NCBI RefSeq assembly: GCF_000972845.2
Contig: NC_040016.1
Coordinates: forward strand, 6,778,701-6,842,700
Reading direction: 5' to 3'
Source of the DNA: Larimichthys crocea
Lineage: Eukaryota; Chordata; Actinopteri; Sciaenidae
Length of the DNA: 64,000 nucleotides
This document shows positions 28,024 to 28,520 of the stretch, piece by piece; positions within the stretch are counted from its first letter, which is position 1, and each line of letters opens with the position of its first letter. Under the pieces are notes generated by a model, which worked only from the letters and a program-made list of their open reading frames with translations, searched no databases and had not been told where the DNA came from. Position numbers and translations under genes: made by a program.

Positions 28024-28520
28024 TTAAAAGCACAGTGGAGCCAGGTCTTCCTCTGCATCAGGAAACAGACGTAAAATGTCCCTTGAATATTTGGAGTAGC
28101 CGTTGTGTGACAGCAGTGCTTTTCTCAGGGTGAGGAAGGACTTTGTCTTCTCCAGGATCTCTGAAAGAGGGAGTCCATTCTGCAGATGTTCTCCAATCAG
28201 TGCCTTCAGTTTCTCCACTCCAGTGCAGCATTTCCTCTCCAGCATGTGGAGTTTACACCTGAGAGAAACAAAGCCACAACTTTTAGTAATACATTCATCA
28301 GTTTAGTCAAAGGAACCTAATGAAATAAGGACTAAAACAAGAGAGTTGGTTTGAGAAATGTAGCTTTTGCTTACCTAAAGAGCTCCTCCTTCACGGTGTC
28401 CTGAAGAGCGAGGTCTGCGTAGAGAGCCATTTCAAGTTTTTGCTTCGTGTGGTGGTTGAGTTCTGCTGCTGTTGCTGCTGCTGCTTCTGGCGAAGGTTCA
28501 GAAGACGTTTCTGTTGACAT
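28024..28520 (-). CDS. Highly divergent Hes/Her-like protein lacking basic region and WRPW
   Basis: Two exons, 28520-28375 (donor TTTAG/GTAAGC) and 28258-28024 (acceptor TTTCTCTCAG/GTGTAA), join in frame to 126 residues. The ATG at 28520 opens a Ser/Glu/Ala-rich N-terminus with two alanine runs; a second in-frame ATG lies 30 codons later. In exon 2, VEKLKALIGEHL followed by SEILEKTKSFL lines up with helix 1 and helix 2 of the neighbouring her genes (IEQLKSLLGPEFL, ADILEMTVCVL). GYSKYSRDILRLF lines up with the Orange segment GYSRCVQEVKHF. The KPLVEKLRRERIN basic region is replaced by CKLHMLERKCC, and the protein ends LAPLCF instead of WRPW. It sits inside the her cluster with its own TATA and CCAAT boxes. 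Inference: an HLH-Orange protein unable to bind DNA or recruit Groucho, perhaps a dimerisation partner or antagonist. The link to Hes rests on this weak alignment and on position. Confidence 0.7.

Follow-up and report, generated by a model that had tools for sequence, protein, structure and literature searches.

A conserved HES5-related gene in teleost her clusters, lacking the basic region and WRPW, as a candidate Id-like partner of Her proteins

HES6 and other HES-type antagonists are HES-related proteins that have been proposed to oppose other HES proteins. Helix-loop-helix (HLH) proteins of the Id type form inactive dimers, and the Orange domain favours partners of the same class, as described in excerpts of PMC8431614. 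The synteny of hes5 and pank4 has been described, and excerpts of the same source report hes5-cluster genes without WRPW, i.e. elephant shark her3, near pank4, and genes of Nanorana (PMC8320183). In zebrafish, her clusters of 28 kb and 30 kb have been deleted; excerpts of that study state that they hold no other genes and that neural stem cells appeared normal in the double-cluster mutants (PMC10112928). The available parts of three hes5-cluster papers contain no mention of a gene of the type considered here (PMC8320183; PMC3396596; PMC10112928). The preliminary description of this locus knew of no described gene with its make-up. Database entries do exist, named “uncharacterized protein” or si:ch73-21g5.7, and the part of the literature on si:ch73-21g5.7, LOC561947 and the concept that was covered, with supplements and subscription journals outside its scope, yielded no description of the product as an HLH protein.

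The window is the whole 64,000-nucleotide stretch of Larimichthys crocea DNA that was analysed. The gene of interest within it (28024..28520, minus strand) is referred to as A, and its copy in the second her cluster as B. Segments 28520-28375 and 28258-28024 on the minus strand splice into a single open frame with GT..AG sites, and the product ends in LAPLCF without WRPW, both as first described (Table 1). The start proposed there, giving 126 residues, did not hold. Exactly 96 residues are found in 16 of the 53 relatives recovered by a single-sequence search, and the remaining ones are either shorter fragments or predictions of greater length. The ATG at 28520 sits approximately 25 nt below the ATAAATA box, which would put it roughly at the expected transcription start, and its context (GCAGATGT) is presumably weaker, by the usual start-context rules, than that of the ATG at 28430 (GAAATGG). 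The 30-residue extension matches none of the predicted N-termini of P0002-P0004 and resembles only that of P0001, an environmental sequence (one of four compared). Because of the relatives' length, the distance from the TATA box, the weaker start context and the N-terminus comparison, the 126-residue form is unlikely, and the protein most likely comprises 96 residues starting at ATG 28430. The intron lies about 11 nt from that of hes5, which is in phase 0, when the two are aligned without gaps; a shifted acceptor could account for the differences in phase and position.

Table 1. Gene A and its promoter elements, in positions of the window
Feature	Position	Strand	Basis
Stop codon of A	28024..28026	-	
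Coding portion of exon 2, spanning both HLH helices with their short loop, the first helix of Orange and the terminal EEDLAPLCF	28027..28258	-	
Intron, 116 nt, phase 2	28259..28374	-	
Coding portion of exon 1 for the likely 96-residue protein, MALYADLALQDTVKEELF plus 2 nt	28375..28430	-	
In-frame upstream extension, more likely 5' leader	28431..28520	-	relatives' lengths, N-terminus comparison
TATA-like ATAAATA	28539..28545	-	
ATTGG, an inverted CCAAT also seen in her4-like promoters	28578..28582	-	
E-box CACCTG, in the her4-like promoter order	28637..28642	-	
GTGGGAA, candidate CSL/RBPJ site by its consensus	28680..28686	+	

The placement of A among her4-like genes was confirmed, with neighbours at 25067 (+) and 32175 (-), and the window flanks agree with the published hes5-pank4 synteny (PMC8320183, in part). 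The her array is flanked by two Fumble-domain (pank4-like) exons at 12858-16325 (-) and by a rhodopsin-type 7TM receptor exon at 50765-51469 (+). The array is itself variable. The her4-like gene at 31846-32175 (-) has lost about 30 residues in frame, the first Orange helix among them, and retains its basic region and WRPW. Three further her4-like copies, at 37219-37937 (-), 41248-42003 (+) and 45354-46136 (+), are rich in indels, as are their promoters, and contain pieces that share 85-98% identity with the intact her4-like gene; these copies are either pseudogenes or unpolished sequence near assembly gaps, which lie at 49153-49252 and 50459-50558. Another her4-like gene with WRPW, L020 (G000:C6:6437-6532), near the contig start and some 6.8 Mb from the cluster, is possibly a misplaced repeat copy.

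The same genome carries B on contig C15, 47% identical to A (E 9e-18). B sits inside the other her cluster, with the closest her gene at a distance of 2-3 kb; the 40 kb of C15 that were examined hold three hes5-type genes. The exon 1 of B, read from L002, encodes MRDQHTT; apart from one residue, it matches P0067, an annotated protein of Larimichthys crocea. A database search with A alone recovered 53 relatives at E<=1; a 24-row alignment recovered 151 at the same threshold, 120 of which are among the matches listed, and a 23-row alignment including early-branching members recovered 147, again with 120 among the matches listed. Among those listed, the named rows run from Scleropages, Arapaima, Paramormyrops, Megalops and eels through to percomorphs, all of which we take to be teleosts. 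The conserved frame, found in bony-tongues too, supports A as a real gene that, as judged by sequence comparison, is older and commoner than was first assumed.

A midpoint-rooted tree was built from 43 rows, i.e. 41 hand-chosen database rows and two from this genome. Bony-tongues and advanced teleosts occur in both halves, as a separation of A and B during the teleost genome duplication would predict. Tarpon and eels are confined to the B half, and support for the central split is low (69/94). The window protein groups with Solea in this tree, from which a croaker A-type row is absent. The comparisons support A and B as two old teleost copies derived, promoter included, from a HES5-type gene. 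The family appears to have expanded in cypriniforms, where Culter P0061, Cyprinus P0063 and Triplophysa P0068 represent an A-type gene of about 101 residues (MxTYMDxSFQ..) that is separate from the type of 93-94 residues, because Triplophysa tibetana carries both types (P0068, P0080). One member, Clarias magur P0058, bears the name S-isoprenylcysteine O-methyltransferase, which has probably spilled over from the adjacent icmt gene; icmt is a neighbour of the zebrafish cluster (PMC8320183, in part).

The relationship to HES5 is visible to targeted comparison. In HHalign, the family profile scored 38.97 (E 1.2e-6) against five hes5 sequences of this genome, compared with a maximum of 16.6 over 60 column shuffles and 9.1 for the reversed profile, and 37.5 when HES1 and HEY rows were added (shuffle maximum 18.4). 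Taken by class, the score was 35.6 for her12/15-like proteins (100 shuffles, maximum 21.2) and 29.3 for her4-like proteins (maximum 22.4); against HES1 and HEY alone it was 14.8, within the shuffles (maximum 22.2). Pairwise alignment of six family members with four hes5 proteins (24 pairs, 500 shuffles each) gave a similar ranking of the two classes. Exon 2 of A scored 57 against one C15 her12/15-like protein, a value reached by none of 500 shuffles. Against two her12/15-like proteins, five members were matched by no shuffle in nine of ten pairs and by one of 500 in the tenth, while the percomorph B protein P0067 was weak, with 6 and 8 of 500 shuffles reaching its score. Against two her4-like proteins the range across the six members was 0 to 261 of 500: P0062 and P0097 were weak (14 to 107), and P0067 was indistinguishable from its shuffles (261 and 186). 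The protein of A thus resembles its her4-like neighbours less closely than it does the her12/15-like genes in the second cluster.

Homology of the HLH helices to HES5 is therefore detected by profile (36-39 vs at most 21 in shuffles) and is not visible to Pfam. A Pfam scan of 55 members gave zero HLH matches and Hairy_orange in one of the 55, at E 0.016, with an unrelated family ranking higher (0.0063); a PDB profile search with the family returned no HLH protein chain. The case for homology is made by the targeted HES5 comparison, the genomic location and the promoter taken together. Profile comparison, 55 aligned relatives and promoter order all back the her-cluster origin first suggested for A, and descent of the family from a HES5-type gene, with loss of the basic region and of WRPW, is supported at the level of sequence.

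The TATA and CCAAT boxes noted upstream of A are both present (Table 1). Promoters were compared with two ordered patterns, scanned over 104 kb with 100 shuffles and picked after the sites had been viewed. Under that choice, E-box - ATTGG - TATA occurs at 5 places (shuffled mean 0.1), i.e. two her4-like genes of the window, A, one her gene of C15, and B. ATTGG - CSL - TATA, chosen in the same way, occurs at 6 places (shuffled mean 0.01), i.e. three her4-like genes of the window, one degenerate copy, one her gene of C15, and B; A has no CSL site in that interval. The two her12/15-like genes of C15, whose class is the closer one in protein sequence, showed neither pattern. Retention of the her4-like promoter order by A and B is supported by these matches.

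Published zebrafish tables list the gene name or a family member beside her and Notch-pathway genes. The link between zebrafish si:ch73-21g5.7 and the family is a presumed one, made through the name that UniProt gives to relatives of the A type (Seriola) and of the B type (Stegastes). In excerpts of one study, tectal cluster OT6 lists her15.1, si:ch73-21g5.7, abhd6a, her12 and her2; OT6 is labelled developing neuronal and is named among the clusters enriched for radial-glia markers (PMC8869500). In the available part of a leptin-a knockdown study in which Delta/Notch genes rise, LOC561947, which is P0090, has an entry of 1.85 close to those of dla, dld and notch1a (PMC6501765). CH73-21G5.3 and her4.2 stand under probe sets that share the number Dr.5372 (PMC3439829, in part), and because of this common number the CH73-21G5 BAC probably carries the her4 cluster.

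These observations can be combined into a proposal, to which we give a probability of about one half, that A is induced by Notch and acts in the manner of Id, pairing with Her proteins and dampening the repression they exert. Notch (through CSL) and proneural factors would turn on A together with its neighbours, and the protein would pair with Her4, Her12 or Her15 through its HLH and half Orange domain. The mixed dimer would have one basic region and one WRPW fewer and would bind DNA poorly, limiting the strength or duration of Notch-induced repressors. Dimerisation and antagonism are inferred parts of this proposal. Conservation was assessed in 55 aligned rows picked from 124 hits, with fused, long and fragmentary predictions left out. 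The contact-Glu position is L/M/I/V in all 55 and the Arg pair position is L/F/M followed by E/Q in all 55, the DNA-contact columns being an ungapped extension of the HES5-based alignment outside its statistically significant part. Read in that alignment, the family has an HLH without a basic region, in keeping with the loss first described for A. WRPW ends none of the 55 members, and the loop is five residues shorter than in HES5.

The conserved parts admit a second reading, in which a HES5-derived protein has moved past HLH pairing and become a small adaptor acting through its tail, loosely like the Bearded-family proteins of the fly E(spl) cluster. Dimerisation does not explain the tail, in which D90 and L94 are invariant (55/55) and P93 nearly so (52/55); C29 is likewise invariant, and the failure of Pfam to detect an HLH and a modelled loop of only about four residues point the same way. 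The core hydrophobic positions of both helices and the G(Y/F)(S/T/N) helix are conserved too, however. AlphaFold (55 sequences for A, 42 for B) predicts helix, loop, helix, turn and helix in both proteins at low confidence (pTM 0.39 and 0.42), with helices at 3-45, 50-68 and 75-83 in A and the same order in B. The helix-loop-helix layout proposed for A is thus predicted, if weakly, while Foldseek searches with the two models matched no HLH fold. Of the alignment with helix 1, helix 2 and Orange described initially, the two helices and the first Orange helix stand, and the second Orange helix is not recognised. On balance, an adaptor role seems unlikely.

The partner could also be different. 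If the partners of A were proneural or E-protein bHLH factors, as in the case of Id, its effect would be to reinforce Her repression and not to dampen it. Excerpts of PMC8431614 note that Id proteins partner mainly with E proteins and that class E bHLH proteins are able to pair with class A, but the HLH and half Orange of A resemble HES5 and, according to the same source, the Orange domain would favour same-class partners; we regard such pairing as distinctly doubtful. That A is a non-coding RNA or a decaying pseudogene, as the counting of ch73-21g5.7 among 11 lncRNAs checked by qPCR might suggest (PMC10970532, in part), is highly improbable given amino acids conserved across teleosts, A/B nucleotide differences of 26/21/49 at codon positions 1/2/3, and different codons at 20 of the 36 residues identical between A and B.

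An Id-like partner of Her proteins encoded within a Notch-target cluster would give the Her network a negative arm and would clearly exemplify the conversion of a class VI repressor into a class V-type HLH protein. More tentatively, teleost hes5 clusters may encode their own Notch-induced Her inhibitor in two genome-duplication copies, forming a self-limiting circuit in which repressor and brake arise from one signal. If the zebrafish copies fall within the deletions described above, repressors and brake would have been lost together, which could have softened the phenotype (PMC10112928, in part).

In comparison with described systems, A shares with the elephant shark her3 and Nanorana genes, so far as these are covered in excerpts of PMC8320183, a place in the hes5 cluster and the lack of WRPW. 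Like Id1-Id4 and emc (class V), the family would have an HLH without a usable basic region and would be expected to form non-binding dimers; unlike them, it resembles HES5, has half an Orange domain, is located in a Notch-target cluster and gives no Pfam HLH match. HES6 retains the basic region and WRPW, unlike A. From HES5 and Her4, Her12 and Her15 (class VI bHLH-Orange) the family differs in having no HES basic region, a five-residue deletion in the loop, no recognised second Orange helix and no WRPW, and A differs further in the phase of its intron (2 vs 0), whereas the two share their locus, the order of promoter elements, both HLH helices and the first helix of Orange.
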